From positions 1-64,000 of the forward strand of contig JAJFFJ010000051.1 of NCBI GenBank assembly GCA_021776685.1: a stretch of 64,000 nucleotides of DNA. Reading direction: 5' to 3'. This DNA is from Alphaproteobacteria bacterium. Lineage in GTDB: Bacteria > Pseudomonadota > Alphaproteobacteria > Bin65. The stretch's first letter is position 1. Every line of letters starts with the position of its first letter. The position numbers and the translations under genes were made by a program. Positions 43,657 to 61,189 of this stretch are shown here, piece after piece. Below the pieces are notes generated by a model. The model searched no databases. It saw only the letters and a program-made list of their open reading frames with translations, and was not told the origin of the DNA.

Positions 43657-45768
43657 CTAACGCAGCAGAGCCTCGACGGTGGCCGATTTGCCATCAGCGT
43701 CGATCACCGTGACCCGGACAAAGCCGGGGCTGTCTGGCGTCCAGAATGCCATGCGGCGGAGCGGATCTCCCGAAACGGGCCGGCCATTCACCAGCCACCT
43801 GAGAGGTTTGCGGCCCCCTTCGGCCGTCAGCGGCAATTGCTGTTTGCCCCGCGCAGATGGCGGCAGGATCAACCGGGCGCCATCCACCGGATAGGTGATG
43901 CGCAGCGCCCGCCGGTTGGCGGCAGTCAGGCGCGCGCTCTGCAATGTCTTGCCGGCGCGATACCGCTGCAGGTTGGCGGGGAGCCCGTTGTTGGCTGCGA
44001 CCAGGACACCTCTCGGACGCTCCGGCAGGGCGCGGCCCGCCGTGCCATTGCGTGATGTGGGAATCAGGTCGAAGACCCGGAACAGGATCGGCGCCGCTGT
44101 TTTGCGGCCATAGCGGCCGGGATGAGGGGTGCCGTCGGGCCGGCCGACCCACACCGCGACCGTATGATGGCTGTCGTACCCCACGGCCCATGCATCGCGG
44201 AAGCCATAGGAGGTACCGGTTTTGTAGGCGATGGGATAGGCGCGGTTGGCCAGTTGCCGGGCCACGGTGGCATCGGGCGGCGGTGCGGCTTCGAGAATCC
44301 GCGCCAGATACCAGGCCGCGACCGGCGAGACCACCCGTGCGGTCTTGCCGGGAACGCCACCTTCCGCTGTGCCCTGGCGGATCTGTATTGGCTGAACCAA
44401 ACCGCCGCGGGCGAGGCCAGCATAGAGTTGCGCCAACTCCAGCAATGTCATGCCGCTGCCGCCGAGCGCCAGTGGCAGGCCGGGGCCTTTGGTTCTGGTG
44501 TCGAAACGCAGGCGGATACCGGCGGCTTTCAGCCGGGCCACAAACCGCGCCGGCCCCACGCCCTCCAGCACTGCCACCGCCGGAATGTTGAGGGACTGCT
44601 GCAGCGCCTTCCGGATGGAGATTTGCCCGTGATAGACGCGCTGGAAATTCTCCGGCCTGTATCCGCCGAAGCGGGTGGGCACATCCGCAATCATCGTTTC
44701 CGGGTGGATCAGGTGGCTATCAAAGCCCATGCCGTAGATCACCGGCTTGAGCGTCGAGCCCGGCGAGCGCACGGCGGTCACCATGTCCACCTGGCCCAGC
44801 CGCTGGGTGTCAAAGAAGGACGCGGCGCCCAGCCAGGCCCGCACCTTGCCGGTCGCATTTTCGACCACCACCACCGCTACCGTGGCCGACGGATGCAGGC
44901 CGGTCAGCTCACTCCGCGCCAGTGCACGGATCGCGGTCTGCAGGTCGCGGTCAAGTGTGGTGCGATGGATGCGTCGTTTATCGGTCGCATGTAGCTGCCG
45001 CGCCAGATGGGGGGCGATGAAAGGCAGGGGTCGCCGGCGGGTGGGGATCGCTTCCGCCATACCGTCCCGGGCTTGCTCGAAAGTGATGACACCGCGGGCG
45101 GCCAACAACGTCAGAATTTTGTCACGCGCCGCCTTGGCCCGCGCCGGAAATCTGTCCGGTCGATTGATTGTGGGGGATTGGGGCAGCGCGATCAGCAGGG
45201 CCGCTTGCCCCGCGGTCAGATGGGTTGGCTCCTTGCCGAACCAGGCCAGGGATGCCGCGCGCACGCCCTCAAGATTGCCGCCCATAGGCGCCAGATTCAG
45301 ATACAGGCGCAGGATGTCATCTTTGCTGAACCGCAATTCCAGCTGTACCGCGCGGGCAGCCTGGCGCAGCTTGGCGGCCAGGTTACGCTCCGACGGCTCA
45401 AGCAGGCGCGCCACCTGCATGGTCAGGGTCGATCCGCCCGACACCACCTGGCCCTGCATTGCCCATTGCGCCACTGCGCGGGCGAAGGCCAGCGGGTCGA
45501 CGCCCGGGTGATGGCGAAAGCGTTTGTCTTCATAGGCGATCAGCATGCGCCGGTAGAGCGGCGATACGGCGTCGAGGCGTACCGGCAATCGCCATGTGCC
45601 GGACTTCGTGACAAAGGCCCGCAGCAGGTGGCCATTGCGGTCGACCACGATGGCGCTGAGATCCTGGGCCCGGCGCAGGTCCGGCGGGAACACCCGGTCG
45701 AGCACGCCGCTGGTGACGACCATGCCCCCAACGACAGCACCCAATATGAGCCAGCGCCGCTTCATCAC
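43657..45768 (-). CDS. pbpC: Penicillin-binding protein 1C
   Basis: PbpC is a bifunctional peptidoglycan enzyme. One N-terminal anchor helix is followed by the GT51 glycosyltransferase (catalytic Glu in AYEDKRFRHHPGVD, then GGSTLTMQ) and the transpeptidase with SPGSTLKP (SxxK), SLN and KTGTS. A C-terminal BiPBP_C domain of about 90 residues ends the protein. It starts at a GTG; an ATG follows directly. It lies immediately after the alpha-2-macroglobulin gene in the same direction, the conserved pair proposed to trap proteases and repair the wall (established knowledge). Confidence 0.95.
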   Translation of the reverse strand: MMKRRWLILGAVVGGMVVTSGVLDRVFPPDLRRAQDLSAIVVDRNGHLLRAFVTKSGTWRLPVRLDAVSPLYRRMLIAYEDKRFRHHPGVDPLAFARAVAQWAMQGQVVSGGSTLTMQVARLLEPSERNLAAKLRQAARAVQLELRFSKDDILRLYLNLAPMGGNLEGVRAASLAWFGKEPTHLTAGQAALLIALPQSPTINRPDRFPARAKAARDKILTLLAARGVITFEQARDGMAEAIPTRRRPLPFIAPHLARQLHATDKRRIHRTTLDRDLQTAIRALARSELTGLHPSATVAVVVVENATGKVRAWLGAASFFDTQRLGQVDMVTAVRSPGSTLKPVIYGMGFDSHLIHPETMIADVPTRFGGYRPENFQRVYHGQISIRKALQQSLNIPAVAVLEGVGPARFVARLKAAGIRLRFDTRTKGPGLPLALGGSGMTLLELAQLYAGLARGGLVQPIQIRQGTAEGGVPGKTARVVSPVAAWYLARILEAAPPPDATVARQLANRAYPIAYKTGTSYGFRDAWAVGYDSHHTVAVWVGRPDGTPHPGRYGRKTAAPILFRVFDLIPTSRNGTAGRALPERPRGVLVAANNGLPANLQRYRAGKTLQSARLTAANRRALRITYPVDGARLILPPSARGKQQLPLTAEGGRKPLRWLVNGRPVSGDPLRRMAFWTPDSPGFVRVTVIDADGKSATVEALLR

Positions 45769-45902: not shown

Positions 45903-48900
45903 CTATCGCCGCGGCTGAATGCGGACGAAGCCCATTTTGTCCCGGCCGAAGATCGACGGCCGGTACATGTCCTCGATGTGAGCGGCCGGCAGGCGGAAGG
46001 TGCCTGGGGTCACGGCACGGACCAGATAGGCCATGTGGAAGCTGCGACCGCGTCCGCCGATGTCGATGGCGGCGACGAAGCGGTCATCCCGCTTGTCGAT
46101 GTAGCGGGCGCCGGCCAGCTTGGGCAGCCACTTCATTTTGCCGGTGGACCGGCCACGCAACCGGGCATTCTCCAGCTCGAAGCCGGCGGGCAGGAGGTCG
46201 ACAATCAGCGCCTGATGATAGGTGCGCGTCTTGGCCGTTACCTGAATCACCGCCACCAGCACATCGCTCTGGCGCACGCGGGTGAGGTTCGCCCGCTTGC
46301 CGTCCAGGGTGTAGAAGATGCGCTTGATGGTGAAGCCCTGGGACGTCGCCGGCAGGGGCCGGTTGGGAATGCCGGTGACGGTCACGCCGTGCCAGACCGC
46401 GTTCTTCCCGGTGTTGCGAACGGCGATGCCGCGGCGCACCTGGGTGTCGCGCAGAGAGACATAGTGCGGCTTGACCCGGTCCTTCACCGTATCCTGGCCA
46501 ACCGCAACGCTGAACTTCGCGCTGCCGCTGCTGGTGGCATGCGCCGCCAGCAACAACCAGGCTTTCTCCTGGGTGCTGAGATGGCGCTGCTTGCCGCGCA
46601 GTTGAGCAACCACGGCCACCAGTTTGGCCAGTTCGGCCGGGCTTTGGGAGGACTGACCGGCGAGCACCAGCACGCCCGATTTGTCCCGCAGCTCTGAGCC
46701 ATAGTCGCGCACGAAGGTGCGCCAATAGCGGCCAACCATGGTCGGACGCCCGGTGTGAACCATCGCAGCGGCCAGCGCCGTCTTGGCCCGTGCGCCATCA
46801 CCATAGAGCGCGAGCGCTGCACCCACCTGGGCCTTGGCCAGCGCCGTTGGCAGCTTCTTCAGCCAGTTGTCGTGGAAGTAGCGCAGATCCGACACGCTGG
46901 TCTCTTTGTTCGCCGCCAGCACATAGTAGGCGTAGGCGATGACCGGCAGGTTCGGCGGGTCATGCTTGACGTTGCGCACCACCCACTTCAGCCGCTCGAT
47001 CATCCGGCTGTAGGGATATTCCGGGATCACATAGCCGCGTTTCTTGGCCTGGGTCAGGAAATCACCCACATAGGCTGTCAGCCAGCCGCCCTGGCTGTCC
47101 GACGAACTCCACATGCCGAAACCGCCATTGCGCTGTTGCATGTTCAGCACGCGGCTGACCGCGCCCTGCACCCTGCTGCGCACCGCAGCTTCATCGGCGG
47201 CGACGCCGATCGACCGCGCCACATCCGCCACATACAGCATCGGCAGCGCCTTGCTGGTGGTCTGCTCTGCACAGCCATAAGGATAGCGGGCCAGCGTTCG
47301 CAGGATGCCGGGCACGCCCAGATCCGGCGTGTTGGCAAAGCTCATCAGCACACGCATGGTGCCCGGCAGATAGGCGCGGGATGCGCCTGCCGCCACGACC
47401 AGCCGTTGCCCCGGTGCAAGTTTGCGGACCGAGAAGGTGGTGACCGGCGCCTGGGCCGGCCTGACGGCGATGTCCCAACTGCGGGAAATCTTAAATCCGC
47501 CGGGACCCGAGAGCGTCATGGTGATCTTGGCAACACCCAGGGTGCGGCCAATCAAAACAAACCGCTCTACAGACCGGCCGCCTTTGGCCAGCGCGCGAAC
47601 CACTGCCGCCCGCTTTCCGGTGCTGACCGCGGCGCCGTCGGCTTTCAGGCTGACGGTGTAGCGGCCTGCCTGGCCGTCCACATTGTTAAGGCTGACAGTC
47701 ACCGCGCCATTGTCGCCAGGGGCGAGGAAACGCGGCAGGGTGATGAGGCTGACCACCGGGTCACGCACGGTCAGCGGCCGTTCGCTGCTGCCGACACTGG
47801 TCTTGCTCCAGGCCACGGCCATCACGCGCAGGCGGCCGTTAAAGTCCGGCACATCCAGTGTGACCTTGGCGGTGCCGTCGGCACCCACAGTGACGATACC
47901 GGAGAACAGGGAGACGGTCTTGATGCTGGACGCATCCAGTGCCCCCATGCTCTTGGCGCCGGCCGCGTCACCGCCCTGGCGGATCTTGCCGAAGGCACCC
48001 GCGAAAGCGTCGATCAGGCGGCCATAGTCGTCGCGCACATCAAGCGCCAGCCGGCGCTTGGCGTAGAAATGACCCTGGGGCGCCGGAGATTTGTAGCCGG
48101 TGAGGGAAAGGATGCCCTCGTCCACCGCGGCCACGGTGACAAAGACTTTCTCGCCAGCCGGGACGTTGCCGACCCGCACGGTCAAATCAACCTTGCCGCG
48201 CGGCCGGATCATCTCGGGCCCCTCCAGCTTGACGCTAAGGGTGCGTTTCCCGAAGTCCTGGGCCACATAGGCGAGGCCGATGGCCCGCGACGGGCCTACC
48301 TTCTGCGATGCATTGGTCGGTCGGTAGGCGGTGGCCATCACATAGGCGCCAGGCCCCCAGCTTCCGTCCACCTTCAGGTCGACCGTGGTGCCACTGCGGC
48401 TCACCTTGACCGTGCGGCTTACCAGGATCTTGTTGGTGGCGACCACCAGATGCACAACGCCATCGAACGGCGGGCGCAGGAAGACCTTGGCGGTGTCGCC
48501 GGCCAGATAGCGCTTTTTGTCCAGGCGCACTGTCAGTTTATCGGGCACGTTGTCCCGGCCAGGCGGCGTCCACCAGCCCACATAGTAGCGGACGCTGGCA
48601 GCGGCGCCGGTCGCCTTGTCACGCACCTCGATGCGATAGCGCCCTTGCTGGGTCGCCATTGTCAGCGCGCCGGGCGCACCGGCGGTGATGTCGAGGCTAC
48701 CCTTCTTCACCGGTTCGTCCCGGCGGATCACGCGATACCGCCAATAGCCGTTCGAGAAGTACCAGTAATATTGATAGACCTCGCGCACGAGCCGGTAGTT
48801 GAGACCCGCAGCCGCGCGGCGCTCACCGGCCTGATTAAGCGCGATGACCTGCAGCTTTGCCGCCACGCCGGCGGGTACGCTGCCTTCGCCATTGGCGAGC

Positions 48901-51140
48901 TTCATACCCAGCACGAGCTTCTTGGCGCGCACGGGAATGGAGATCGTCCGCTCCAGCGCACGGCCACCAGATTCCAGCAGCGACACGCGTACGACGGCTT
49001 TCAGGGGCCGTGTGGTTTCCGGCACGCCATCCAGCGCGACGGGCAGCACGGCGCGGCCCTTGGCATCGGTGCGGGTGGCTTTGAGAGTAATCTGCTTTGA
49101 ACGCCAGCTCTCCGTCACCAGACCGAAGGTGTAGCCCTTCCATTTCGGATAGGGGTTCCAGTCCATCTGCAGACGCAGTGACGCCTCGACCGTCAGGTCA
49201 GCAGCCGCAGCGCCGTAGAGGAAGCGGCCATCGACCAGGACCGAGTTGGCCTGTCCGGGGCGCAGCGCCTCAATCGCCGCCTTCAACGTCATCTCCAGCT
49301 TCTCTGGGACGAAGTCTTCCACTTGGAAAAGCACACGGCCGATGGCGCGGCCTTTGGGATTTACATAGGCGCGAAGCGTCCAGCCGCCGGTACGTGACGC
49401 CTTGGACATGGGGATCGACAGGCGATAGCCGCCGTTGCCGGCGTCCTTCACCACAAATCTGCGGGCCTGCACACCGTCCGGCCGGAACAGCTTGAAGGTT
49501 ACCGGCATGCCCGTGATGGCATTGGCTTTGTCGTCACGCACGAGGGTGACCACATGCACGGTCTCGCCCGGGCGATAGACACCGCGCTCTGTATAAACGT
49601 AGCCGTCAACCGGGCCGGGGGCGGCGCGGCCGCTGACGCCGCGGTCGCTCAGGTCAAAGGCCGGGCCGGTCAGGTTCTGAAAATTGAAGTCGCCGTCCTT
49701 GGTGCGGACCATAAGGGCCGCGGGGCGGTTGCCGCCCGAGCCGCGGATTATGCCAGCGGCAAAGGTCACTCGGCCATCGGCATCGGTGGTGGCGGTTCCC
49801 AGCACCTTGTTGTTGCGGGCAATCAGGCTGACGCGTACGCCGGCCTTGGTTCCGCCGGTGGCGAAGGATCGCACATAGACCGCGAGTTCGCCTCCGCGAT
49901 AGGTGGCGATGCCCAGATCACTGACAACCAGATACTGGGTCGCCTGGTTGTCCCAGCGGCCATACTTGCCGTCCTTGCGCCAGGGACGGGCCATCAGAAT
50001 ATAGATGCCGGGTTTTGTGGATTTCAGGATCTGCGCCACCGGAATGGCGGTACCAACCTGGCGGTTCATCTTGCTCTGAATGTCGATGGTGCCCCGCCAG
50101 ATTTCCTCGCCTTGCGTATTGGCGATCTGGTTGCCGCGCCGGGCGGTCAGCAGGCGATACATCGCGGAGTCGTTGATCTGGTGCACCAGGTTGCGGTCAT
50201 TGATCCGCAGGACGCGTATTTGGGCACGGGCGACGTTGACCGACAGCATGGGAATTCCACGGCGGCCGACGCGAGGCAGGATGAAGGTCTTGCCGCGGAA
50301 ACCGATGCGCATGTCACGGTTCGGTACGCTGATGCGGTACTGCGCCTGCTTGGTGGTGCGCAGCGCGCCTTTGGCTTCCGGCAGCCCCTCGCGCACGGTC
50401 ACGTCATATGTGGTGCCGTGGTTGACGCCCTCGATGCACAGCACCCGGCCACGCACGGCAAAGGCAGCCTTCACGGCCGGCGACAGCTTCACATACTGGT
50501 CAAACATTGCCGGTGAGGCGGCGGGCAGCTGACGCGAAAAGGTCAGGCAGATGCGCGGCGTATTCGTTTCTTTCTCAACCCGGCTCGACATGACCTGCTG
50601 GCGGTGGCGCATGATCAGGCGGGTCAGGCGGCTCGCCGCGTCGCTGCGCCGGCGAATTTTGATTGATGCTTCAAGTGCCCCGATCGCCTGGTCGTAGCGG
50701 CGAAGCGCTTCCAGATTGAAGCCCACCAGATAAAGAGCATAGGACATGTCACGCGGCTTGCGGGTGTCCTGGGCCGCCCGGTAGGCGGCATAGGCTGCCG
50801 CGAGCGACTGGCTGTTGCGGTTGGTGGTGGCGAGCACCCAGGCATATCGCTGCCAGTGGCGGTATTCGCGCAGGCCCGCCGCGATCGCGCGGCCATAAAG
50901 CGGCAATGCGGCCCGGTAGTTTTTCTGCCGGGTCAACTGCTCGGCTTGCACATAGAAGACTGCAGCCGACTTCTTGTTGGCCCGCCCGTACCGGCGCACC
51001 AGCTGTCGGGCCAGCGCATCGGCGGCCTGGCTGAATTGGGGTTTATCGTAGGTGGGTTGAGGTCGGGTTTGAGCGTTGGCGGCAGGTGCCGTAATCACGG
51101 CGGCCAGAATCAGTATCAGTAGTGACTGGAAGCAACGCAT
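45903..51140 (-). CDS. Bacterial alpha-2-macroglobulin (MG2/thioester protein)
   Basis: A 1745-residue exported protein, YfhM-like. A signal peptide ends ANAQ, without a lipobox Cys, so it is not a lipoprotein as in E. coli. An unusual N-terminal region of about 150 residues has a TPR-like helical repeat (YGRAIAAGLREYRHWQRYAW and YALYLVGFNLEALRRYDQAI). The macroglobulin domains follow with the family motif VYTERGVYRPGETVH, and the reactive thioester YGCAEQTT (CxEQ) is intact. A receptor-like domain closes the protein. Bacterial A2M forms a covalent bond to attacking proteases in the periplasm. pbpC lies next. GTGAGG upstream of the ATG supports the start. Confidence 0.93.
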   Translation of the reverse strand: MRCFQSLLILILAAVITAPAANAQTRPQPTYDKPQFSQAADALARQLVRRYGRANKKSAAVFYVQAEQLTRQKNYRAALPLYGRAIAAGLREYRHWQRYAWVLATTNRNSQSLAAAYAAYRAAQDTRKPRDMSYALYLVGFNLEALRRYDQAIGALEASIKIRRRSDAASRLTRLIMRHRQQVMSSRVEKETNTPRICLTFSRQLPAASPAMFDQYVKLSPAVKAAFAVRGRVLCIEGVNHGTTYDVTVREGLPEAKGALRTTKQAQYRISVPNRDMRIGFRGKTFILPRVGRRGIPMLSVNVARAQIRVLRINDRNLVHQINDSAMYRLLTARRGNQIANTQGEEIWRGTIDIQSKMNRQVGTAIPVAQILKSTKPGIYILMARPWRKDGKYGRWDNQATQYLVVSDLGIATYRGGELAVYVRSFATGGTKAGVRVSLIARNNKVLGTATTDADGRVTFAAGIIRGSGGNRPAALMVRTKDGDFNFQNLTGPAFDLSDRGVSGRAAPGPVDGYVYTERGVYRPGETVHVVTLVRDDKANAITGMPVTFKLFRPDGVQARRFVVKDAGNGGYRLSIPMSKASRTGGWTLRAYVNPKGRAIGRVLFQVEDFVPEKLEMTLKAAIEALRPGQANSVLVDGRFLYGAAAADLTVEASLRLQMDWNPYPKWKGYTFGLVTESWRSKQITLKATRTDAKGRAVLPVALDGVPETTRPLKAVVRVSLLESGGRALERTISIPVRAKKLVLGMKLANGEGSVPAGVAAKLQVIALNQAGERRAAAGLNYRLVREVYQYYWYFSNGYWRYRVIRRDEPVKKGSLDITAGAPGALTMATQQGRYRIEVRDKATGAAASVRYYVGWWTPPGRDNVPDKLTVRLDKKRYLAGDTAKVFLRPPFDGVVHLVVATNKILVSRTVKVSRSGTTVDLKVDGSWGPGAYVMATAYRPTNASQKVGPSRAIGLAYVAQDFGKRTLSVKLEGPEMIRPRGKVDLTVRVGNVPAGEKVFVTVAAVDEGILSLTGYKSPAPQGHFYAKRRLALDVRDDYGRLIDAFAGAFGKIRQGGDAAGAKSMGALDASSIKTVSLFSGIVTVGADGTAKVTLDVPDFNGRLRVMAVAWSKTSVGSSERPLTVRDPVVSLITLPRFLAPGDNGAVTVSLNNVDGQAGRYTVSLKADGAAVSTGKRAAVVRALAKGGRSVERFVLIGRTLGVAKITMTLSGPGGFKISRSWDIAVRPAQAPVTTFSVRKLAPGQRLVVAAGASRAYLPGTMRVLMSFANTPDLGVPGILRTLARYPYGCAEQTTSKALPMLYVADVARSIGVAADEAAVRSRVQGAVSRVLNMQQRNGGFGMWSSSDSQGGWLTAYVGDFLTQAKKRGYVIPEYPYSRMIERLKWVVRNVKHDPPNLPVIAYAYYVLAANKETSVSDLRYFHDNWLKKLPTALAKAQVGAALALYGDGARAKTALAAAMVHTGRPTMVGRYWRTFVRDYGSELRDKSGVLVLAGQSSQSPAELAKLVAVVAQLRGKQRHLSTQEKAWLLLAAHATSSGSAKFSVAVGQDTVKDRVKPHYVSLRDTQVRRGIAVRNTGKNAVWHGVTVTGIPNRPLPATSQGFTIKRIFYTLDGKRANLTRVRQSDVLVAVIQVTAKTRTYHQALIVDLLPAGFELENARLRGRSTGKMKWLPKLAGARYIDKRDDRFVAAIDIGGRGRSFHMAYLVRAVTPGTFRLPAAHIEDMYRPSIFGRDKMGFVRIQPRR

Positions 51141-51928: not shown

Positions 51929-52477
51929 ATGAAAAGAACGACCGCCACGCTTCTTGGCACGCTGCTGCTGGCGGCTTGCGCCAATGATTCAGCCGTCCCG
52001 CCTGAGAAGCCGGTGGATCAGACACTTACGTTCACCGGCAAGGTCTTGGAGAAGGCCGGCCGCTGTCACACCGTTCGCACTCGCAATGGCCGGTTTGCGC
52101 TGGATCGTGGCGTATTGCGGGGTGTGCCTGTGGGCGCGTGGGTGCGGGTGCAAGGCTACAGCGCACGCAGACAGAGTTGTCCCAACGCCCAGCGCATCGT
52201 TGTTACCAGTCTGCGCCGCGTCCGCCAGACGAAACGGACGCGGTCATTCAACAATCCACGCAGTCGCGGGGTCTCGCTAGATCACTGCAAACGCTACCGC
52301 CGCCAATGCGGGCGGCCTGCCGCGCTGGCATTCTGCAGGCGTCGCGGCTTTCGTCAGGTGGCGGCCTTCTCGACCCGTCCGGCGCGGCGTACCCGGGTTC
52401 ATGTCGGCGGGCGCATCTGCCGGTCGCGCGGGCGCATCCAGTGCCGACGTTTTCGGGTCATCCGTTGCCGCGGCTAA
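51929..52477 (+). CDS. Cys/Arg-rich lipoprotein of unknown function
   Basis: A 182-residue predicted lipoprotein; the lipobox is TLLLAAC (Cys17). Residues 30-85 resemble a small OB/DUF5818-like beta domain (FTGKVLEKAGRCHTVRTRNGRF, FALDRG, AWVRVQGYS). The C-terminal 70 residues carry a Cys pattern with CKRYRRQCGRPAALAFCRRRG (split here), F-Q-VAAF, then ICRSRGRIQCRRF and a final C. The CGxPAAxxFC...GF motif also occurs in other uncharacterised extracellular proteins (from memory). Six Cys could form three disulfides. The RBS is GGAGAGGG. The protein is very Arg-rich. No function can be stated. Confidence 0.7.
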   Translation: MKRTTATLLGTLLLAACANDSAVPPEKPVDQTLTFTGKVLEKAGRCHTVRTRNGRFALDRGVLRGVPVGAWVRVQGYSARRQSCPNAQRIVVTSLRRVRQTKRTRSFNNPRSRGVSLDHCKRYRRQCGRPAALAFCRRRGFRQVAAFSTRPARRTRVHVGGRICRSRGRIQCRRFRVIRCRG

Positions 52478-52481
52478 TGGC

Positions 52482-54695
52482 TCAGGCCTGGTCGCCGCCG
52501 GGGGTAGAGCCATCCCAATCGTCGGGTGGCGGCGCATTGCGGAACGCGCGGATGCGCCCTGAATACAGGTCATAGAGTGCATCCAGCCGGCCGCCGCCCA
52601 TCTCGCGCGCCTGGGCCAGCGCCTCTTGCGCTTCCGCCCACCGGCGTGCCCGGTAGTGCGCCAGCATGGCTTCGTGGATTGTCTTTAGCTGTTTGAATGC
52701 ACCATCGTCTGCAATGGTCTCGTCTCCCAGCAAGGCAAAAATGGGCAGTGGCGCGCGCCCGGACTGACGCAGCAGATCAAGCTCCAGAGCTGCAAGCATA
52801 GGCACGTCTCGCCTGGCTCCCGGTCCCAGCACCACGCTTGCGCCGAAGAAGCGGCTTTGCCGGGCGAGCAGTGCGGCATGGGTCACCGGGCGTCCGAGCG
52901 CGGAATATTCAAACCGCTGGGCAACCCCTGCATCGCCCACAAAACATTCGCCCGCCTCGATGCCCACGGCAATGTCCAGCTCCGGTGGGCGATTGCCCTC
53001 CTGCCCTTCCGTGCGCAGGCGTTCGTTCAGACGGGCAGCCGTGGACATGATTTCCAGCGCAGCCCGGCAGGCGCGAAGCGCGTGCTCTTCGTCGGGCGCA
53101 GGTGCGTTCCAAAACGCCTGGACGCGTCCATGAGTCAGTTTGTCGAGCGTGCCGCCATGGGAATAGAGAATCGCCGTGGCTGGCGAAAAGAGCCGCCGCG
53201 TCAGCAATGTCATTTCCCGTGCGCCGTGGCGCTCTACCAGTTCGTCGAACTCGCGGATCATCACCTGCAAGGATGTAACCGGGCGCATGTCTTCGGCCGG
53301 CGGCGCCCGGCTTTCGGACTGCACAATCTGGCTGAGGAGCTTCGGCGGCAGGTTCCGCTGAAAGCGCAGCATCAGTGACTCGCGGTTGCTCTGCCGCCGG
53401 GCGGAGGCGGCGGCGTAGCTCGCCAAGCTGATTATGATAATTATGAGCGCCGGCGCGGTGCCGTCAATCTGCCAGCCATAGCGGGCAAAAGCGGCCCAGC
53501 CGGCCGCAGGCATCAACAATACGGCTGCCGTGACCATGAACAGCGCCGCATAGCCGCGAACCCGGCCAAGAAGATAGATCATCAGCAGCGATATCAGCAC
53601 CACATAGGCAAGCTCCAGGTCTTTGGCGAAGGCGGGCCGCGACAGGAATCGCCCTTGCAGAATCTGTTCCAGCGCCTGCGCCATGAGTACGGGTTCAGTG
53701 ACAATATCGCCCAGTGGGGTCCGCCAACGCGGGGTCGACGGCGTGCGGACGGTAACGATCACAATCCGGCCCTTGATCCGGTTTTTGTCCACCTCATTCG
53801 CCAAGACCCGCCAGGCAGATATCCTGCGCGACGGCCGGTCTGGTGAAACATGCAGCATCATCCAGCCGCGCCGGTCGGTCGGAATTTTCAAATCGCCGAT
53901 TTGCAGGGTTCCAAGGGGCGCGTGCTCGCCAAACAGAATGGGTGAGTGGGCAGGACCGCTGAGGGAGATACGTTTGGTTTTGCGGGTCAGGCGCACCAAT
54001 TCCGCCAGGACAGACGGGTAGATGCGCCCCCCAATCAGGAAAGCCGTTGGCAGCTTGCGGGTGACCTGGCCGGCCGGCAGGGTCGGCGGCCGTGCGCCGT
54101 TGCCTGCCGCCGCAGCCTCAATCAGCTGGATAGGACCTGAGGCGCCTTCGAGCCGGACCAGTTCGTCGGCAATACCGGCAGGCGCATCCACGCTGGTTTT
54201 GCGCCCTGGCAGCTTGGTTCCGCGCCTGGTTGTTGCATGGAAGCTGGTGACAGAAGGCGTCCTGGCGATTGCGCGGGCAAGTGACTTGTCCTGGCTTGTC
54301 CACCCTGAATATCGGGCCTTGATCGCATTTAGTTCCGGCAGCGGCGGCAGCCGCAGCAGCAGGCGTTGGGGCGCATTGGGGTCGGGCTCAGACAGGTCCA
54401 GCAAAACGCCGGTCGCCCTCGCGCCCATGTCGTGCAGCCGGTCGAAAATCTGCGCAATGCGGGTCCGTGGCCATGGCCATGGCGCGATGCGTTGCTGGGA
54501 ATCCTGGTCAATCTCGACGACCACTACAGCGGGCCCGTCGCTTGGCTCCTTGCGGGGGCGCAGGTCCTGATAAAGGTCGAAGGCGCCCAGTCTCAGGTTT
54601 CTCAACTGCGGCGGTTCAATCACCATGACGGCGGTCAGCGCGATCAGCACCATGAACGGCAAAATCTGAAGCAGCCAATAACCCGTCGTGCGCAT
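52482..54695 (-). CDS. CHASE2 sensor with degenerate class III cyclase domain
   Basis: A 737-residue membrane protein: one N-terminal helix, a large periplasmic CHASE2 sensor (about 40-370), three closing helices, and a C-terminal domain homologous to adenylyl cyclases. The cyclase fold is clear (HGGTLDKLTHGRVQAFWNAP, AVGIEAGECFVGD), but active-site residues are replaced: the first metal Asp in FADIRGF is Met (LQVMIREF), the second in FIGDAIMAF is Gly, and the GDxVNxAARLE block reads GRPVTHAALLA, losing the base-selecting Asp, the Asn and the Arg. It should be a pseudo-cyclase, perhaps signalling by protein contact. It follows the ZnuA-like gene by 16 bases and probably shares its Zur-linked promoter. 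Confidence 0.88.
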   Translation of the reverse strand: MRTTGYWLLQILPFMVLIALTAVMVIEPPQLRNLRLGAFDLYQDLRPRKEPSDGPAVVVVEIDQDSQQRIAPWPWPRTRIAQIFDRLHDMGARATGVLLDLSEPDPNAPQRLLLRLPPLPELNAIKARYSGWTSQDKSLARAIARTPSVTSFHATTRRGTKLPGRKTSVDAPAGIADELVRLEGASGPIQLIEAAAAGNGARPPTLPAGQVTRKLPTAFLIGGRIYPSVLAELVRLTRKTKRISLSGPAHSPILFGEHAPLGTLQIGDLKIPTDRRGWMMLHVSPDRPSRRISAWRVLANEVDKNRIKGRIVIVTVRTPSTPRWRTPLGDIVTEPVLMAQALEQILQGRFLSRPAFAKDLELAYVVLISLLMIYLLGRVRGYAALFMVTAAVLLMPAAGWAAFARYGWQIDGTAPALIIIIISLASYAAASARRQSNRESLMLRFQRNLPPKLLSQIVQSESRAPPAEDMRPVTSLQVMIREFDELVERHGAREMTLLTRRLFSPATAILYSHGGTLDKLTHGRVQAFWNAPAPDEEHALRACRAALEIMSTAARLNERLRTEGQEGNRPPELDIAVGIEAGECFVGDAGVAQRFEYSALGRPVTHAALLARQSRFFGASVVLGPGARRDVPMLAALELDLLRQSGRAPLPIFALLGDETIADDGAFKQLKTIHEAMLAHYRARRWAEAQEALAQAREMGGGRLDALYDLYSGRIRAFRNAPPPDDWDGSTPGGDQA

Positions 54696-54711
54696 GGTGC
54701 GAATGCCTGTG

Positions 54712-55827
54712 CTAACGAGTCGGCTGTTGGGGATCTAGGCAACGGACGAAGCGCTTCGTCACGCCGGCCATGATGGCGAAATAGGCGCGGTCGCTCGCGG
54801 GCACGGCCAGGCCATAGGGGTCGATAATGACAATGGCGTTGGCGCGGTTACCCAGCTTGTTGCGTACTTTCGGCGTGAGCGATGTGCCGCCGTAAATGCA
54901 GCGCGAAGCTTCCTGTGCCAGCCGGGCGCGCACAGCTGCAATTGTATTCCGGTCCAGCTTGCGCATCTTCAGGCTCAGGCGCGATGACGGACGCAATAAA
55001 TAGTGGCCTTCATAATAGCGGGTCTTGGCATCGATGATTGCATACCGGCCGCGCGCGATCGCCTGCAAGCTGGCCCGGGTCTCCGCATCCATGGTTTCGA
55101 TGCGCACGATCAACTGGGCCAGATTGCGTCTGTAGGTACGACCGTTGGTCGGGTCCAGCCTGATCAGCGCTCGGGCGATGTGCCGCGCCATGGCAATCGC
55201 ATTGCGGGGATCCATCCAGATATGGGGGTCGGGATCGCGCGGGCGAAGATCGGCGCGGGTGATCTGACGCGTGCGGGGGGTGTAGGCGGGTTTGGGCCTG
55301 CCTGATTGGCCGCCGCCATTCCGGCCTGTATCAACAGCGCCGCCGTCGCGGGGAATCACGACAGTGCGGCGGCCGGCGCCTGATTTCTTGACGGTGACCT
55401 TCGGTTTTGCCCTCCGCGCCGATCTCTGTGTCCGGGCCGCCGCCACGGCGCCGCTGCCCCGCCCTACGAGGCGCAGGCCGGGTGTATTGATCATCGGCAG
55501 GCTCTCGACCTTTTCCTTCAATTGCTTGAGCGGGCCCACGAGATAGGATTCGAGCCCGGGCCCGAGCCAGATGACAATTCTACCCCGCTGCAGAAGCGCC
55601 GTTTCATCGACATTCAGGGGTTGCGTGCGCAGATAGGGATTGCCCTCCAGCAACAGCGTCGGCGTGCCGGCGCCGCGCATCAGAAAGGCTGTCAGGCCAT
55701 AGATCGGCTTGATGCTGGTCAGAACCAAAGGTGGTTTGGCCTGGGCCGCGCCGGCGATCCCGGTGCTCAGTACCGCCAGCGTCAAGGCTGCCCGGATACG
55801 TGCGGCGGTGGTCAATATTCGCAGCAT
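54712..55827 (-). CDS. ZnuA-like substrate-binding protein with degenerate metal site
   Basis: A 371-residue exported protein of the cluster A-I (ZnuA/TroA) family with a signal peptide ending AQA. The fold is clear: VLTSIKPIYGL, WLGPGLESYL, DPHIWMDPRNAIAMA and IDPYGL. Of the three zinc histidines only the one in DPHIW remains; the first (SEHDY in E. coli) aligns with Arg in NPYLRTQPL and the third (FHDAYGYF) with Ile in AIIDAKTRYYE. The His-rich loop is replaced by a Lys/Arg-rich insert of about 70 residues. ATG 55827 is used; an in-frame ATG at 55872 lies eight bases from the Zur box and lacks a ribosome site. It probably does not bind zinc in the normal way. Confidence 0.85.
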   Translation of the reverse strand: MLRILTTAARIRAALTLAVLSTGIAGAAQAKPPLVLTSIKPIYGLTAFLMRGAGTPTLLLEGNPYLRTQPLNVDETALLQRGRIVIWLGPGLESYLVGPLKQLKEKVESLPMINTPGLRLVGRGSGAVAAARTQRSARRAKPKVTVKKSGAGRRTVVIPRDGGAVDTGRNGGGQSGRPKPAYTPRTRQITRADLRPRDPDPHIWMDPRNAIAMARHIARALIRLDPTNGRTYRRNLAQLIVRIETMDAETRASLQAIARGRYAIIDAKTRYYEGHYLLRPSSRLSLKMRKLDRNTIAAVRARLAQEASRCIYGGTSLTPKVRNKLGNRANAIVIIDPYGLAVPASDRAYFAIMAGVTKRFVRCLDPQQPTR

Positions 55828-55879
55828 CTCGGCGGCAACGCTCAGCAGCTCGTGCGGTTTCTCTGCGCGCATCCAATAC

Positions 55880-55892
55880 GTTATAGTATAAC
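55880..55892. promoter_or_regulatory. Perfect Zur box
   Basis: GTTATAGTATAAC is a perfect inverted repeat of GTTATA around one base and matches the core of proteobacterial Zur sites. It sits between zur-znuCB and the divergent ZnuA-like gene, 53 bases before the latter and 157 before zur, and overlaps TATAAC/TATACT-like -10 elements on both strands. One Zur dimer pair here could control both units. Confidence 0.8.
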
Positions 55893-56048
55893 AAATAGTG
55901 TAAGTGTTCGGACGCGCCGATGCCGCTGACTATGGGAGAGGGCGCGCGGCCTGACAAGGTATTTCAGGCGTTTGCGGGTCGTTCGCCGGGCCGATGCCCG
56001 GTTTTGGCAGCGCGCAAGACCGAGTCCGTCAGGTTGAAGGAGAATATA

Positions 56049-56546
56049 ATGGATCTCAGGATCACCGGCGGTTTCGCCCCGCCTGGCCACAACCATCGAC
56101 GCTGTATTGTGGACGCAATGGATCGGGCCGCCCAGGTTTGCGCCGCACGGGGCGCACGCCTGACGCCGCAGCGCCGGCGGGTTCTGGAGTTGATCTGGTC
56201 GTCGCACAAGCCTGTCGGCGCCTATGGATTGATCGAGCAGTTGTCCGAAAGCGGCCAACAGGTGGCGCCGCCGACGGTTTATCGTGCGCTCGACTTTCTC
56301 CTGGCCAATGGCCTGGTGCACAGGATCGAGCGGCTGAACGCATTTGTCGGCTGTCCGGAAGTTGAGCAGGATCACGCACCGCAATTTCTGATCTGCGGCG
56401 ACTGCGGCGATGTAGCGGAGCTTCGGGAACAATCCGTCGAGGCCGCCATCGCCGCAGGCGCGCGGTCGGCGGGTTTTGTTGGCTGGCGCGCCAGCGTTGA
56501 GGTGGTGGGTGTGTGTCCGGAATGCGCCGGCGGCATCTCTCCATGA
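56049..56546 (+). CDS. zur: Zinc uptake regulator Zur (Fur family)
   Basis: A 165-residue Fur-family protein. The winged helix domain has LTPQRRRVLELIWSSHKPVGAYGLIEQL and PPTVYRALDFLLANGLVHRIERLNAF. The dimer domain carries the zinc sites: HAPQFLICGDCGDV (CxxC), and CPEC near the end. Its place upstream of znuC and znuB and next to a Zur box identifies it as Zur rather than Fur. The start at 56049 has AAGGAG six bases upstream; an earlier in-frame ATG (55920) adds a non-conserved lead. The stop overlaps znuC as ATGA. Zinc-bound Zur should repress this operon and the divergent ZnuA-like unit. Confidence 0.94.
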   Translation: MDLRITGGFAPPGHNHRRCIVDAMDRAAQVCAARGARLTPQRRRVLELIWSSHKPVGAYGLIEQLSESGQQVAPPTVYRALDFLLANGLVHRIERLNAFVGCPEVEQDHAPQFLICGDCGDVAELREQSVEAAIAAGARSAGFVGWRASVEVVGVCPECAGGISP

Positions 56547-57313
56547 CTGATTCTGGATCGACCGAACCCGGGGTATCGCCGCTTGTGCGCTGCCGGGGTC
56601 TGACGGTCAGCTTTGGCGGGCTTGATGTAGTCGAGCGGGTCGATCTTGCCATCGACCGGGGCCAGATCGTCTCGCTCATCGGTCCTAACGGATCCGGCAA
56701 GACAACCCTGGTACGTGCGATCCTGGGCCTGGTCCCGCCATCGGGCGGCGCGATCGAACGCCAGCCTGGCCTGCGCATCGGCTATGTGCCCCAGCGGCTG
56801 GCAGTGGACCGGTCCCTGCCAATGACCGTGGCCAGGTTCCTCAGCATGACCCAACGCACCGGGCGGCGGGCACTTGTGGTGGAGCTGGAGCATTTGGGTA
56901 TCGGCGGTCTGGCCGACCGCCCGGTGCAGGATCTGTCCGGCGGCGAGTGGCAACGGGTGCTGCTGACCCGTGCGGTGCTGGCCCGGCCTGACCTTCTGGT
57001 CCTCGACGAGCCTGCGCAGGGGGTCGACATCATCGGCCAGAACGAGCTCTACCGGCACATTCGCGCCCTGCGTGACCGGCTGAACTGTGGCGTGCTGCTG
57101 GTGTCCCATGACCTGCATCTGGTGATGGCGTCGACGGACGAGGTGCTGTGTCTCAACCATCACGTCTGCTGCACCGGCCGGCCGGAAACCGTCGCTAACC
57201 ATCCCGCGTATGTTGAGTTGTTCGGCCGAGCGGCTACCGCCGAGCTCGCGGTCTATACCCACCATCACGACCATACCCACGACCCTGCCGAACAAGGCCA
57301 CAGCCATGGATGA
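56543..57313 (+). CDS. znuC: Zinc ABC transporter ATP-binding protein
   Basis: A 256-residue ATPase of the zinc/manganese ABC importers. Motifs are Walker A GPNGSGKTT, Q-loop YVPQRLA, signature LSGGEWQR, Walker B LLVLDEPAQGVD and H-loop VSHDLH. The GQNELYRHI and NHHVCCTG segments are typical of ZnuC. The C-terminus ends in THHHDHTHDPAEQGHSHG, a His-rich tail that could bind zinc in the cytoplasm. Start and stop overlap the neighbouring genes by 4 and 8 bases, so the operon is tightly coupled. Confidence 0.95.
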   Translation: MTDSGSTEPGVSPLVRCRGLTVSFGGLDVVERVDLAIDRGQIVSLIGPNGSGKTTLVRAILGLVPPSGGAIERQPGLRIGYVPQRLAVDRSLPMTVARFLSMTQRTGRRALVVELEHLGIGGLADRPVQDLSGGEWQRVLLTRAVLARPDLLVLDEPAQGVDIIGQNELYRHIRALRDRLNCGVLLVSHDLHLVMASTDEVLCLNHHVCCTGRPETVANHPAYVELFGRAATAELAVYTHHHDHTHDPAEQGHSHG

Positions 57314-58100
57314 CTTCTTGTGGCGGGCCGCTCTTGCCGGGGTGGGCGTCGCGGCGATGACCGGCCCGGTGGGCTGCCTTCTGGTGTGGCGGCGGATGGC
57401 GTTTTTTGGCGATACGCTGGCCCATGCCGCGCTTCTCGGGGTGGCGCTGGGCTTGCTGCTCGGTGTCAATGTCATGGTCGGCGTGGCGGCAACATCGGCG
57501 CTTCTGGCTGTTCTGCTGGCCGCTTCGGCCCGTCAGCGCTTGGTGCCGTCTGATACGGTGCTGGCGATCCTGTCTCATGGGGGGCTTGCAGCGGGGGTTA
57601 TTGTCCTGACTTTGCTGCCCGGTGTGCGGGTTGACCTGATGGGCTTCCTTTTCGGCGATATTCTTGCGGTGACGCGGGGTGATCTGATTTTGATCCTCGC
57701 CGTGGGCCTCGTGGTGTTGACCGTGCTGGCGGTCATCTGGCGTCAAGCCCTTGCGGTGGCGGTGGATGAAGACCTGGCCCGTGCGGATGGGGTGGCGGCA
57801 GATCGGATCAATCTGACGGTGGTCTTGCTGGCGGCCCTGGTGGTGGCCGCCGCAATCAAGGTGGTTGGCATCCTGCTGGTCGCGGCATTGATGATCATGC
57901 CGGCGGCAGCGGCCCGCCGCTTCGCCCGTACGCCAGAGCATATGGCGATTGGCACCGTGGTTGTGGGCGTTGCCGCCGTTTTCTTCGGCTTGGCGGCGTC
58001 GCTGGCCTGGGACACGCCGGCAGGCCCGTCGATCGTGGCGGCGATCGCCCTGCTGGTGGTGCTGGCATGGTTGACGCCGCGCCGGGCCATATCCCAATAA
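57306..58100 (+). CDS. znuB: Zinc ABC transporter permease
   Basis: A 264-residue inner-membrane permease with about eight predicted helices. Family blocks include GCLLVWRRMAFFGDTLAHAALLGVALG near the start, GDILAVTRGDL (coupling loop region), and KVVGILLVAALMIMPAAAARRFAR. With ZnuC it forms the translocating part of the zinc importer. The start at 57306 lies inside the end of znuC. The normal ZnuA partner is not apparent: the only ZnuA homologue here has lost two zinc histidines. Confidence 0.95.
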   Translation: MDDFLWRAALAGVGVAAMTGPVGCLLVWRRMAFFGDTLAHAALLGVALGLLLGVNVMVGVAATSALLAVLLAASARQRLVPSDTVLAILSHGGLAAGVIVLTLLPGVRVDLMGFLFGDILAVTRGDLILILAVGLVVLTVLAVIWRQALAVAVDEDLARADGVAADRINLTVVLLAALVVAAAIKVVGILLVAALMIMPAAAARRFARTPEHMAIGTVVVGVAAVFFGLAASLAWDTPAGPSIVAAIALLVVLAWLTPRRAISQ

Positions 58101-58125: not shown

Positions 58126-58144
58126 ATATTTCACGTTGAAATAT
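58126..58144. promoter_or_regulatory. LysR-type operator candidate before the sulfite reductase gene
   Basis: ATATTTCACGTTGAAATAT is a perfect 7-base inverted repeat with a 5-base centre and contains a T-N11-A core. It lies about 80 bases upstream of the start, in an AT-rich island. A CysB-like sulfur regulator is the obvious candidate, but none is in the window. Confidence 0.55.
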
Positions 58145-58222
58145 TGCTTTTTATGCACGACCGATCCAAATTCCCCATTACTCAGCAGTAGAACAGTTAT
58201 TTGCTGGGAAATGGAGGATACG

Positions 58223-60454
58223 GTGACAGACATTCCCCCGGTTGCGGGCCTTACATCCCTGGAGACCCTGGATCGTCAGCAATCCTGGCAGCCAGCCAGT
58301 GAACCACTGGTTAAACAGTCAGATGTTGTAGAATTGCGCGACGCTCTGGACAAATTCCGGTCCGGTGCTTGGGATGACGGTCGCTGGACCGCCTTCCGCT
58401 TGCGCTATGGCATTTATGGGCAGCTGCAGCCGGGCGTGCAGATGGTGCGCATCAAAATTCCGGGCGGCATCGTCACCCTGGAAACGGCCCGCGGCATGGC
58501 GGAGATCAACCGCCGTTTCGCCAAGGGCGACGTCCATCTGACCACCCGGCAGGACTTCCAAATCTACCATGTGCCGACCGATGCTGTGGCTGATCTGTAT
58601 CTGGCCATGTCCGACGCCGGACTGACGGCGCGGGAAGGCTGCGGCAATACCCTGCGCAACATGACCTCCTGCGCGCTGGCGGGTATTTGCCCCCGCGAGC
58701 ATGTGGATGCGGGTCTGGTGGCGCAGCAACTGTCGACCGCCTGGTTGCGCAACCCGCTGGTGCAGAACATGCCGCGCAAGTTCAAGGCGACGGTCTCGGG
58801 CTGTGCAACAGACTGCGGCGCATCGGGGATTCATGATTTCGGCGCCATTGCGGTGGAAGAAAATGGCCGGCGCGGTTTTCGTATCCTCGCCGGGGGTGGC
58901 ACCGGCGGCCAGCCGATCGCCGCGGTTCAGGTGCTGGACTTCATCACGGAAGATGCGTTGCCCACAGCGCTTGAGGCGGCGGTTCGCTTGCATCAGCGCT
59001 TCTCCAACCGGGTGGACCGCAATAAGGCGCGGCTCAAGTTTCTGGTCAAACGCTTCGGCGCTGACAAATTCCGCAGCCTGTTTCAGGAAGAATTTGAACG
59101 GCTGCGCGCATTGCCCCAACGGCCTTGGGAAAAACTCGCTTGGCGGACGCCGGCGGACGCACCCGAGCCGACGACGCCTCACGGCGTCTTCGATCAGCAT
59201 GATGGCGGCGTCAGCATTGTGATCACGCCGCCGCTGGGCCTGCTGTCGTCGGATCAGCTTGAAGCCGTCGCAAATATCGCTGAGACCAACGCCGGACGGG
59301 AACTCCGCCTGACCCGCGAACAGAATCTGGCCATTGTCGGTCTGTCGCCCGCCGTGATTGACGCCGTGATTGCTGAGCTTCGCAGCATCGGCTTGCCGGT
59401 ACAGGAACAGGCCGGCGGCGAGCCAGACCTGATCTCCTGCCCCGGCACCACCACCTGCCGCATCGGCATCACCAACAGCCAGGATTTTGGCCGGGAATTG
59501 GAAGAGGTGGTGCGCAGCTATACGGCCAATGACGCCGCGAAAAAGAATCTGCGGGTGCGCATCTCTGGCTGCCAGAACGGCTGCGGCCTGCACCATGTGG
59601 GAGACTTCGGCTTCCGCGGAATGGGCAAGAAGATCAACGGCAAGGTTGCCCCCCACTACCAGATCTATATCGGCGGCGACGACCGCACTGTGGGCGCGAT
59701 CGGCATTGCCGGGCCCATCGTGCCGGCGAAGCAGGCAAAAAAGGCGCTTAAGCTGTTGCTGGATGGCTATGACCGCGACCGACAACAGGACGAATCGGTC
59801 CGGTCATGGGCCCATCGCCTGGATAAAGAAGGTCTGGCCGTATATCTGGCGCCCCTGAATGCCGGTGCGGTAGATGACCCGTATGTTGACTGGGGCAAGA
59901 CAGAGGGCTTCACAACGCCGGCGGCGACCAAGGCCGAGTGCGCTACTGCGGTCCTGGATGACAGCTTGTTTCAGGACATGGCTGACGACGCCCTGATTAC
60001 TCTGGACCGCGCGTTGATCGCCGGCGATGTGGACCTGGCGCTGGAATCCGGCCGGGCTGCATTCATCTGGGGTGCGCGTCGGCTGCTGAACGCCATGGGC
60101 CAGTCCACGTCGGATGACGATACGGTCGAAAGCCTGAAGGCCTGGGTGCGACTGCATTATGCGGGTGATGTCGATGCCGTCGCTGCGCTGCAAGCCACCG
60201 AAGTCGCTGAGGATGCAGCGCACCTGACGCGCAATGGCACCATCGACAAATGGCGGGAAAGCCTCGCCGTCTGGCTGGACCTTGCAGAATTGGCCGTACG
60301 CAACGCAGAGGAAACCCTTGGTCTGGCTGAAATCGGCGCGCTTGCGGACTCTGGCGGTGCGGTTGCCGATCTGCTGAAGGCGCAAGAAATTACCGCAAAG
60401 GCGCCCGGGTCCGGCGATGTGGGCGCCACGCCGGTGGCGGGCTGGAGCTACTGA
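58223..60454 (+). CDS. Siroheme nitrite/sulfite reductase with duplicated cluster motifs and C-terminal extension
   Basis: A 743-residue hemoprotein, about 190 longer than CysI/SiR. Both pseudo-symmetric halves of the nitrite/sulfite reductase fold are present. The second half has the usual 4Fe-4S/siroheme ligands (Cys406, 412, 450, 454; CX5C-X37-CX3C). Unusually, the first half has a second full set (Cys150, 156, 194, 198) with the same spacing. From about residue 570 a Asp/Ala/Leu-rich helical extension follows that I do not recognise. The GTG start at 58223 has GGAGG five bases upstream; an ATG at 58211 is also in frame. cysH follows after three bases, so the role is sulfite reduction to sulfide in assimilation. 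Confidence 0.9.
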   Translation: MTDIPPVAGLTSLETLDRQQSWQPASEPLVKQSDVVELRDALDKFRSGAWDDGRWTAFRLRYGIYGQLQPGVQMVRIKIPGGIVTLETARGMAEINRRFAKGDVHLTTRQDFQIYHVPTDAVADLYLAMSDAGLTAREGCGNTLRNMTSCALAGICPREHVDAGLVAQQLSTAWLRNPLVQNMPRKFKATVSGCATDCGASGIHDFGAIAVEENGRRGFRILAGGGTGGQPIAAVQVLDFITEDALPTALEAAVRLHQRFSNRVDRNKARLKFLVKRFGADKFRSLFQEEFERLRALPQRPWEKLAWRTPADAPEPTTPHGVFDQHDGGVSIVITPPLGLLSSDQLEAVANIAETNAGRELRLTREQNLAIVGLSPAVIDAVIAELRSIGLPVQEQAGGEPDLISCPGTTTCRIGITNSQDFGRELEEVVRSYTANDAAKKNLRVRISGCQNGCGLHHVGDFGFRGMGKKINGKVAPHYQIYIGGDDRTVGAIGIAGPIVPAKQAKKALKLLLDGYDRDRQQDESVRSWAHRLDKEGLAVYLAPLNAGAVDDPYVDWGKTEGFTTPAATKAECATAVLDDSLFQDMADDALITLDRALIAGDVDLALESGRAAFIWGARRLLNAMGQSTSDDDTVESLKAWVRLHYAGDVDAVAALQATEVAEDAAHLTRNGTIDKWRESLAVWLDLAELAVRNAEETLGLAEIGALADSGGAVADLLKAQEITAKAPGSGDVGATPVAGWSY

Positions 60455-60457
60455 GAG

Positions 60458-61189
60458 ATGCCCTGGGATAGCCCGTCACCGGTGGCCGGAGACTTCTGGC
60501 CGCCAGAGGCTCACCGGTCACCGGAAGAGATCGCCCTCGAACTTGTGCGCCAGACGATTGGCCGCTTTGGCCAGCGGGTGGCCCTGGTCTCTTCTTTCGG
60601 TGCCGAATCAGCGGTGCTGCTCGACCTGGTTGCCCGCGTGGAGCCGGCAACACCGATCATATTTCTGGATACACTGAAGTTGTTTGGCGAGACCCTCGCC
60701 TACCGGCGAGACCTGGTGGCGCAACTGGGTCTGACAGATGTTCGCGATATACAGCCATTGGCAGCCGGCGTTGCCGCGAAAGACCCTGACGGCACCCTCT
60801 GGCAGACCAACCCAGACAGGTGCTGCGAGCTGCGCAAGGTGCTGCCGCTGGAGCGGGCGCTGGACGGGTTCGACGCCTGGTTCACAGGGCGCAAACAGCA
60901 TCACGGGGGCGACCGCGCCAGCCTTCCTGAGGTGGAATTCGACGGAACCCGCACGAAGGTCAATCCTCTCGCCACCTGGACGCCAGACGATATCGACGGG
61001 TTTTTCGAGGCGCGCCGCCTGCCGAAGCACCCGCTGTTGGCGGAGGGTTTTCTGTCAATCGGCTGTACTCCGTGCACAGCCCCTGTGGCTGACACCGACG
61101 CCGGCGCGCGCTCCGGCCGCTGGAAGGGCCGCAAGAAAAACGAATGCGGCATCCATACGGGCTACTGGGACAAGGCCGACGCACGCTAA
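60458..61189 (+). CDS. cysH: Phosphoadenylyl/adenylyl-sulfate reductase, Fe-S type
   Basis: CysH reduces APS or PAPS to sulfite. The 243-residue protein has the nucleotide-site VSSFGAESAVLLDLV, FLDTLKLFGETLAYR, FTGRKQHHGG, and the four cluster Cys as DRCCELRKV and GCTPCTAPV, followed by the catalytic Cys in ECGIHTG. The CC/CxxC pattern marks the 4Fe-4S class, which usually prefers APS. The usual TGLRR of the nucleotide loop reads TGRKQHH here. It is coupled to the sulfite reductase gene (three-base gap), so the two enzymes act in sequence. ATP sulfurylase and DUF934 genes, often adjacent in other alphaproteobacteria, are missing. Confidence 0.94.
   Translation: MPWDSPSPVAGDFWPPEAHRSPEEIALELVRQTIGRFGQRVALVSSFGAESAVLLDLVARVEPATPIIFLDTLKLFGETLAYRRDLVAQLGLTDVRDIQPLAAGVAAKDPDGTLWQTNPDRCCELRKVLPLERALDGFDAWFTGRKQHHGGDRASLPEVEFDGTRTKVNPLATWTPDDIDGFFEARRLPKHPLLAEGFLSIGCTPCTAPVADTDAGARSGRWKGRKKNECGIHTGYWDKADAR

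Follow-up and report, generated by a model that had tools for sequence, protein, structure and literature searches.

The closest described relatives of the two proteins considered here are the zinc-binding proteins of the ZnuA type and the CHASE2 cyclases. ZnuA proteins of cluster A-I (PF01297), such as those of Salmonella and E. coli (2xqv and 2ps3), share a signal peptide, the ZnuA fold and paired cysteines with the first protein, which also has their second zinc-binding His and their conserved Asp. In Paracoccus denitrificans, zur and znuA are likewise transcribed divergently, with a Zur box that was demonstrated by gel shift (PMC5387054), and the box motif of the present locus resembles it. 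The CHASE2 cyclases, including CyaD1, CyaD2 and CyaK of Sinorhizobium meliloti, have the whole domain layout and a conserved C-terminal tail in common with the second protein, and those of S. meliloti sense via the outer-membrane protein NsrA (PMC13001267). At the locus described here, one protein of each type is encoded beside zur, and each appears to have lost the residues on which its family activity depends. Judging from sequence comparison, each of these gutted protein types has parallels elsewhere that are kept by selection, and the pairing itself was seen nowhere else among the loci surveyed.

Layout of the zur locus

The window, which is the whole stretch of 64,000 nucleotides that was analysed, corresponds to contig C105 of an alphaproteobacterial assembly of 4.54 Mb in 158 contigs. 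The features on which this study centres are as follows.

55880–55892, no strand assigned: Zur box, perfect dyad GTTATAGTATAAC, between two divergent units
54712–55872, minus strand: gene for the ZnuA-like exported protein, open reading frame of 386 aa with a Pfam ZnuA match
52482–54695, minus strand: gene for the putative CHASE2 pseudo-cyclase, open reading frame of 737 aa with a Pfam CHASE2 match
55920–56546, plus strand: zur, by family search; the real start is likely a Met at about 56049
56543–57313, plus strand: znuC, NCBIfam ZnuC score 307.9, above the cut-off of 306
57306–58100, plus strand: znuB, by family searches

The initial annotation had described a perfect Zur box between two divergent units, one of them an ordinary zur-znuC-znuB operon, and both were recovered here, the operon at 55920–58100 by family searches and the box as a perfect dyad matched by the zur boxes of the class. 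At up to two mismatches, the dyad is expected 0.06 times in the window, and of the 104 class zur loci, 50 have a box at this stringency in the 400 bp preceding zur, against 0/104 in shuffled DNA. Genome G003 of the same family carries GTTATATTATAAC as its Zur box. A whole-genome scan with a slightly looser pattern and one mismatch allowed returned three sites, and only two boxes in the genome are perfect, namely the one at 55880–55892 and one on contig C110 (43854–43866), which precedes an intact znuA by 55 bp. We take the box to be real; it lies at or near the promoter, as is expected in a Zur regulon, and the pair would be under Zur control. The box is 7 bases upstream of the ATG at 55872 and about 53 bp from Met16 at 55827, which opens a normal-looking signal peptide. 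Since the latter spacing is near that at the intact znuA and the signal peptide looks normal, the ZnuA-like protein probably starts at Met16 and not at the ATG at 55872.

The gap of 16 bases from the ZnuA-like gene to the CHASE2 gene, on one strand, was confirmed together with both reading frames, and a convergent gene (51929–52477) lies directly beyond the pair, an arrangement that points to co-transcription of the two genes. Scans of the pair for sigma-70 promoters and terminators gave counts close to those of shuffled DNA; one promoter-like match fell within the CHASE2 gene. The pair has GC3 values of 0.73 and 0.75, its codon-position GC and codon use are like those of other genes in the window, and shifted frames of both genes have much lower coding scores. 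The possibility that they are decaying pseudogenes was rejected, both frames being intact with normal codon use; normal coding composition and the retention of scaffold residues make the two genes appear unlike decaying frames.

Several neighbouring genes were recorded in addition. The product of the convergent gene, whose end is separated from that of the CHASE2 gene by 4 bases, is small, exported and Cys-/Arg-rich, without a Pfam match. Further along (45903–51140) lies a gene for a bacterial alpha-2-macroglobulin of 1745 aa with a GCAEQ thioester-type motif, which adjoins a large penicillin-binding-protein-like open reading frame (43657–45768). On the other side (58136–61189), a nitrite/sulfite reductase-type gene lies 35 bases past znuB on the same strand and is followed by a cysH-like open reading frame, and transcription of the Zur-controlled operon may read through into the reductase-type gene.

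The ZnuA-like protein

The ZnuA-like protein matches Pfam ZnuA (PF01297) with E = 3e-28 and 99.3 bits against a curated cut-off of 29, and scores 75 bits on the NCBIfam ZnuA equivalog, which has a cut-off of 268. All three zinc-binding His are present in 54 of 57 class ZnuAs. In the window protein, the first (His in 54/57) is Arg82, the second is kept as His217, the third (His in 57/57) is Asp281, and the conserved Asp column is kept as Asp351. Two zinc His had been reported as replaced by Arg and Ile; the Arg stands, but the residue in the third column is Asp281 and not Ile280 according to phmmer, MAFFT and profile-HMM alignments, each of which is free of gaps there. The Lys/Arg-rich insert reported in place of the His-rich loop is indeed present, with 0 His and 19 Lys/Arg in a loop of 73 residues; a His-rich loop is usual, not universal, and six other class ZnuAs likewise have no His in it. 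Cys325 and Cys378 are kept, as are 35 of the 61 columns conserved among the 57 ZnuAs, and many of the losses form consecutive stretches at the pocket (S80-P81-H82, H281-D282-A283 and E329-P330-Q331), the conserved Glu-Pro-Gln being Gly-Thr-Ser in the window protein. These changes suggest that normal zinc binding has been lost, and one idea is that the metal-bound form is imitated by a bridge that Arg82 makes between Asp281 and Asp351. The AlphaFold model was built on an alignment of 6 sequences and has a pLDDT of 53, which is too poor for pocket geometry; in Foldseek, this low-confidence model matched ZnuA structures with a TMt of about 0.73.

In a tree of 59 ZnuAs, the branch of the ZnuA-like protein measures 2.48 against a median of 0.51, and it groups with another long branch; the tree is compatible both with an old divergent znuA and with a new arrival. 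A search of 84,980 named species for close relatives returned distant fragments only, no orthologue was found in 385 class genomes, and a scan of viral contigs found no ZnuA relatives.

The genome encodes two further PF01297 proteins, of which the one on contig C40 is AztC-like and has its own permease. The other, on C110, is the second normal ZnuA that the initial annotation had proposed to look for, intact, with a His-rich loop and its own perfect Zur box. In each of two genomes of the same family, G003 and G001, a single ZnuA is encoded, which retains all three His, and in G003 zur-znuCB has a box with neither znuA nor a CHASE2 gene adjoining. Zinc transport therefore has its own normal binding protein, which makes a transport role of the ZnuA-like protein unlikely, in agreement with the earlier reading of the pair as something other than transport; given the single intact ZnuA of the family genomes, the pair is extra to the ordinary zinc system.

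A parallel to the ZnuA-like protein is found in family f57, where, in 6/6 genomes with a match, the zur-linked ZnuA has Ser, Thr, Ala or Tyr in place of the first His, with a dN/dS of about 0.2, and where the genomes checked carry an AztC/TroA-like zinc-type binding protein elsewhere with three His intact. These ZnuAs (L145, L155 and L136) are like the window protein in their zur locus, lost first His and His-poor loop, whereas they keep the third His, have an acidic loop where that of the window protein is basic, have a CobW-type GTPase neighbour and no CHASE2 gene, and stand apart from the window protein in the tree. Within this family (L145, L155, L439 and L440), the CobW-type gene lies beside some of the ZnuA genes, and the second His is also lost (Tyr) in two genomes.

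The CHASE2 protein and its cyclase-fold domain

The sensor domain of the CHASE2 protein is clearly recognized (Pfam CHASE2 E = 2.5e-35, 122.7 bits against 26.3), while Guanylate_cyc reaches 17.9 bits against a curated cut-off of 21.9, although the fold still matches solved cyclases, among them the structures of Cya2, CyaB and CyaC. A first transmembrane helix is followed by the periplasmic CHASE2 domain (29–356), three transmembrane helices (357–445) and a cyclase-fold domain (465–657), and a structure model with a pLDDT of 88 shows this membrane layout and the cyclase fold. Loss of the two metal-binding Asp and of the base-selecting residues had been described, and residue comparison bears this out: all six catalytic positions examined, which cover the two metal Asp, the base-selecting Lys and Asp and the transition-state Asn and Arg, are changed (Met479, Gly523, Arg602, Thr605, Leu609 and Ser645). 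Four core residues are kept in 92 of 101 full-length class relatives and at least one is changed in the other 9/101, with all four lost in the window protein only. Outside the catalytic positions, 10/11 conserved columns are kept in the C-terminal tail and 33/53 in the sensor. The description of both proteins as degenerate at their active sites is thus upheld, by Arg82 and Asp281 in one and by the six changed positions in the other.

Class III cyclase sites are assembled from two subunits, and since both half-sites are lost here, no rescue by or of a partner is expected; rebuilding of an active site with an active cyclase partner was considered and is unlikely. The CHASE2 protein would have no cyclase activity. 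The same genome encodes, on contig C68, a full-length CHASE2 cyclase homologue with intact core catalytic residues and about 34% identity to the window protein over the full length, beside TPR-protein and FecR genes. A FecR or TPR-protein relative is near 33 of the 92 intact CHASE2 loci, and a TAXI protein near 0/92; the window protein has no adjoining FecR or TPR-protein gene.

Other CHASE2 pseudo-cyclases occur in the class. In family f10 they are present in 35/40 genomes, with the first metal Asp changed to Gly and the Arg to Tyr or His in 30/30 examined, and their dN/dS of about 0.02 in close pairs indicates strong purifying selection. These proteins (L053, L405, L406 and L408–L437) are like the window protein in having lost catalytic residues and in having a gene for a solute-binding protein adjacent in 10/30 loci, but differ in the residues lost (the second metal Asp is mostly kept), in the divergent orientation of that gene and in sharing about 28% identity with it. 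The adjoining gene encodes a TAXI-type periplasmic protein (L408–L414, L424, L426 and L432, in three genera) with a TRAP-type permease alongside, and no TAXI-type protein lies beside the pseudo-cyclase in genus g246. The parallel is weak because the gene is divergent, has a TRAP-type permease as neighbour and is missing from g246, and the ten loci count as one event because f10 genomes share one ancestry. A third pseudo-cyclase group, in family f121 (L337, L340 and L351), has the second metal Asp changed to Gly and the Arg to Leu, and its gene adjoins a cytochrome c gene with no binding protein beside it.

Possible roles of the pair

The best mechanism that we can offer, and one put forward tentatively, is a joint sensory role of the pair as an accessory sensor of zinc starvation, the link between the two proteins being drawn from their adjacency and shared control. 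The pair would be a lineage-specific, Zur-repressed two-gene operon, occupying the slot where the class often has a divergent znuA. When zinc is low, Zur would leave the box, and the pair would be made with ZnuCB, together with the intact ZnuA from its own box. The ZnuA-like protein would be exported with a ZnuA fold and without a normal zinc site, and hence would not feed ZnuBC, while the CHASE2 protein would span the inner membrane, exposing its sensor domain to the periplasm and carrying a cyclase-fold domain that makes no cyclic nucleotide. More speculatively, the ZnuA-like protein might act in the periplasm as the partner that supplies the CHASE2 sensor with its input, an envelope partner being reasonable given the NsrA precedent (PMC13001267), and output might pass by protein contact, or by mixed dimers that damp the active CHASE2 cyclase encoded on C68. 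If this were true, a shortage of zinc would induce a receptor whose input is something other than zinc and whose signal runs via a dead cyclase. We know of no report of a pseudo-cyclase output of CHASE2 proteins, and a literature search for a link between CHASE2 and zinc found nothing relevant.

A joint role is favoured by a real Zur box, the two perfect ones of the genome being here and at the intact znuA, by the 16-base gap on one strand with a convergent gene directly after, and by full frames in which loss is centred on the sites and the scaffold is retained; both kinds of degeneration are, moreover, maintained elsewhere, in f57 and f10. Against it stand the single assembly, the speculative contact between the proteins, the fast evolution of both genes, which is also compatible with relaxed selection, the weak f10 parallel and the f121 pseudo-cyclase without a neighbouring binding protein.

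That the two genes are chance neighbours, a redundant old or duplicated znuA drifting under an ancestral Zur box with a cyclase-dead CHASE2 gene downstream by accident, is almost as probable as the joint role. Conservation of the pair in relatives, a test set beforehand, went against the initial annotation: a CHASE2 gene was found at 0/104 zur loci of the class, znuA or zur at 0/101 CHASE2 loci, with no znuB match at those examined either, and the pair in 0/10 other genomes of the same family, all of other genera. Only one assembly is known to carry the pair, which is possibly a genus-wide, genus-specific device. This absence fits chance, as do the very long ZnuA-like branch, the presence of an intact Zur-boxed znuA and the repeated rise of pseudo-cyclase CHASE2 proteins (9/101); full-length frames with normal codon use, however, are harder to reconcile with drift, as are the clustering of many losses at functional pockets and the retention of much scaffold, the paired cysteines and the tail.

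It is rather unlikely that the ZnuA-like protein delivers or reports a different ligand, whether linked to the CHASE2 protein or not. The ligand might be another metal, held by His217, Asp281 and Asp351; alternatively, Arg82 and the basic loop might attract an anion or a metal complex. Asp281 could be a metal ligand, and a Glu at the position of the third His is a mark of Mn/Fe-type binding proteins (PMC12183173); His217, Asp351 and the fold are retained as well. The Arg in place of the first His argues against such a ligand, since that His is kept in 54/57 ZnuAs and its counterpart is needed in Rhizobium ZniA, in which single His-to-Ala changes abolish function (PMC12183173). Taken together, the acidic residue of Mn/Fe-type proteins and the ZniA data make normal zinc transport unlikely and leave metal binding possible.

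Returning to the joint sensory role, we consider a wider form of it unlikely, in which the pair is a zinc-starvation signalling pair with a former metal-binding protein as periplasmic ligand or sensor subunit of a CHASE2 receptor whose signalling needs no catalysis, and one instance of a broader theme of solute-binding proteins with CHASE2 pseudo-cyclases, the f10 TAXI pair being another. Less probable still is an action of the ZnuA-like protein on ZnuBC, as a non-binding docking competitor or accessory tuning ZnuA-dependent uptake with the CHASE2 protein unrelated, which would suit its retained ZnuA fold and a gene opposite znuCB with a common box between, but would leave the CHASE2 gene 16 bases downstream unexplained.

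Even if the pair is not joint, CHASE2 pseudo-cyclases and ZnuAs without the first His are kept by selection across whole bacterial families, and annotation by family name would miscall such proteins as adenylate cyclase and zinc-binding protein. Beside the intact znuA on C110, a 5'-nucleotidase/metallophosphoesterase gene lies 145 bases after znuA on the same strand (G000:C110; L347:3921–6555) and is a possible further member of the Zur regulon.
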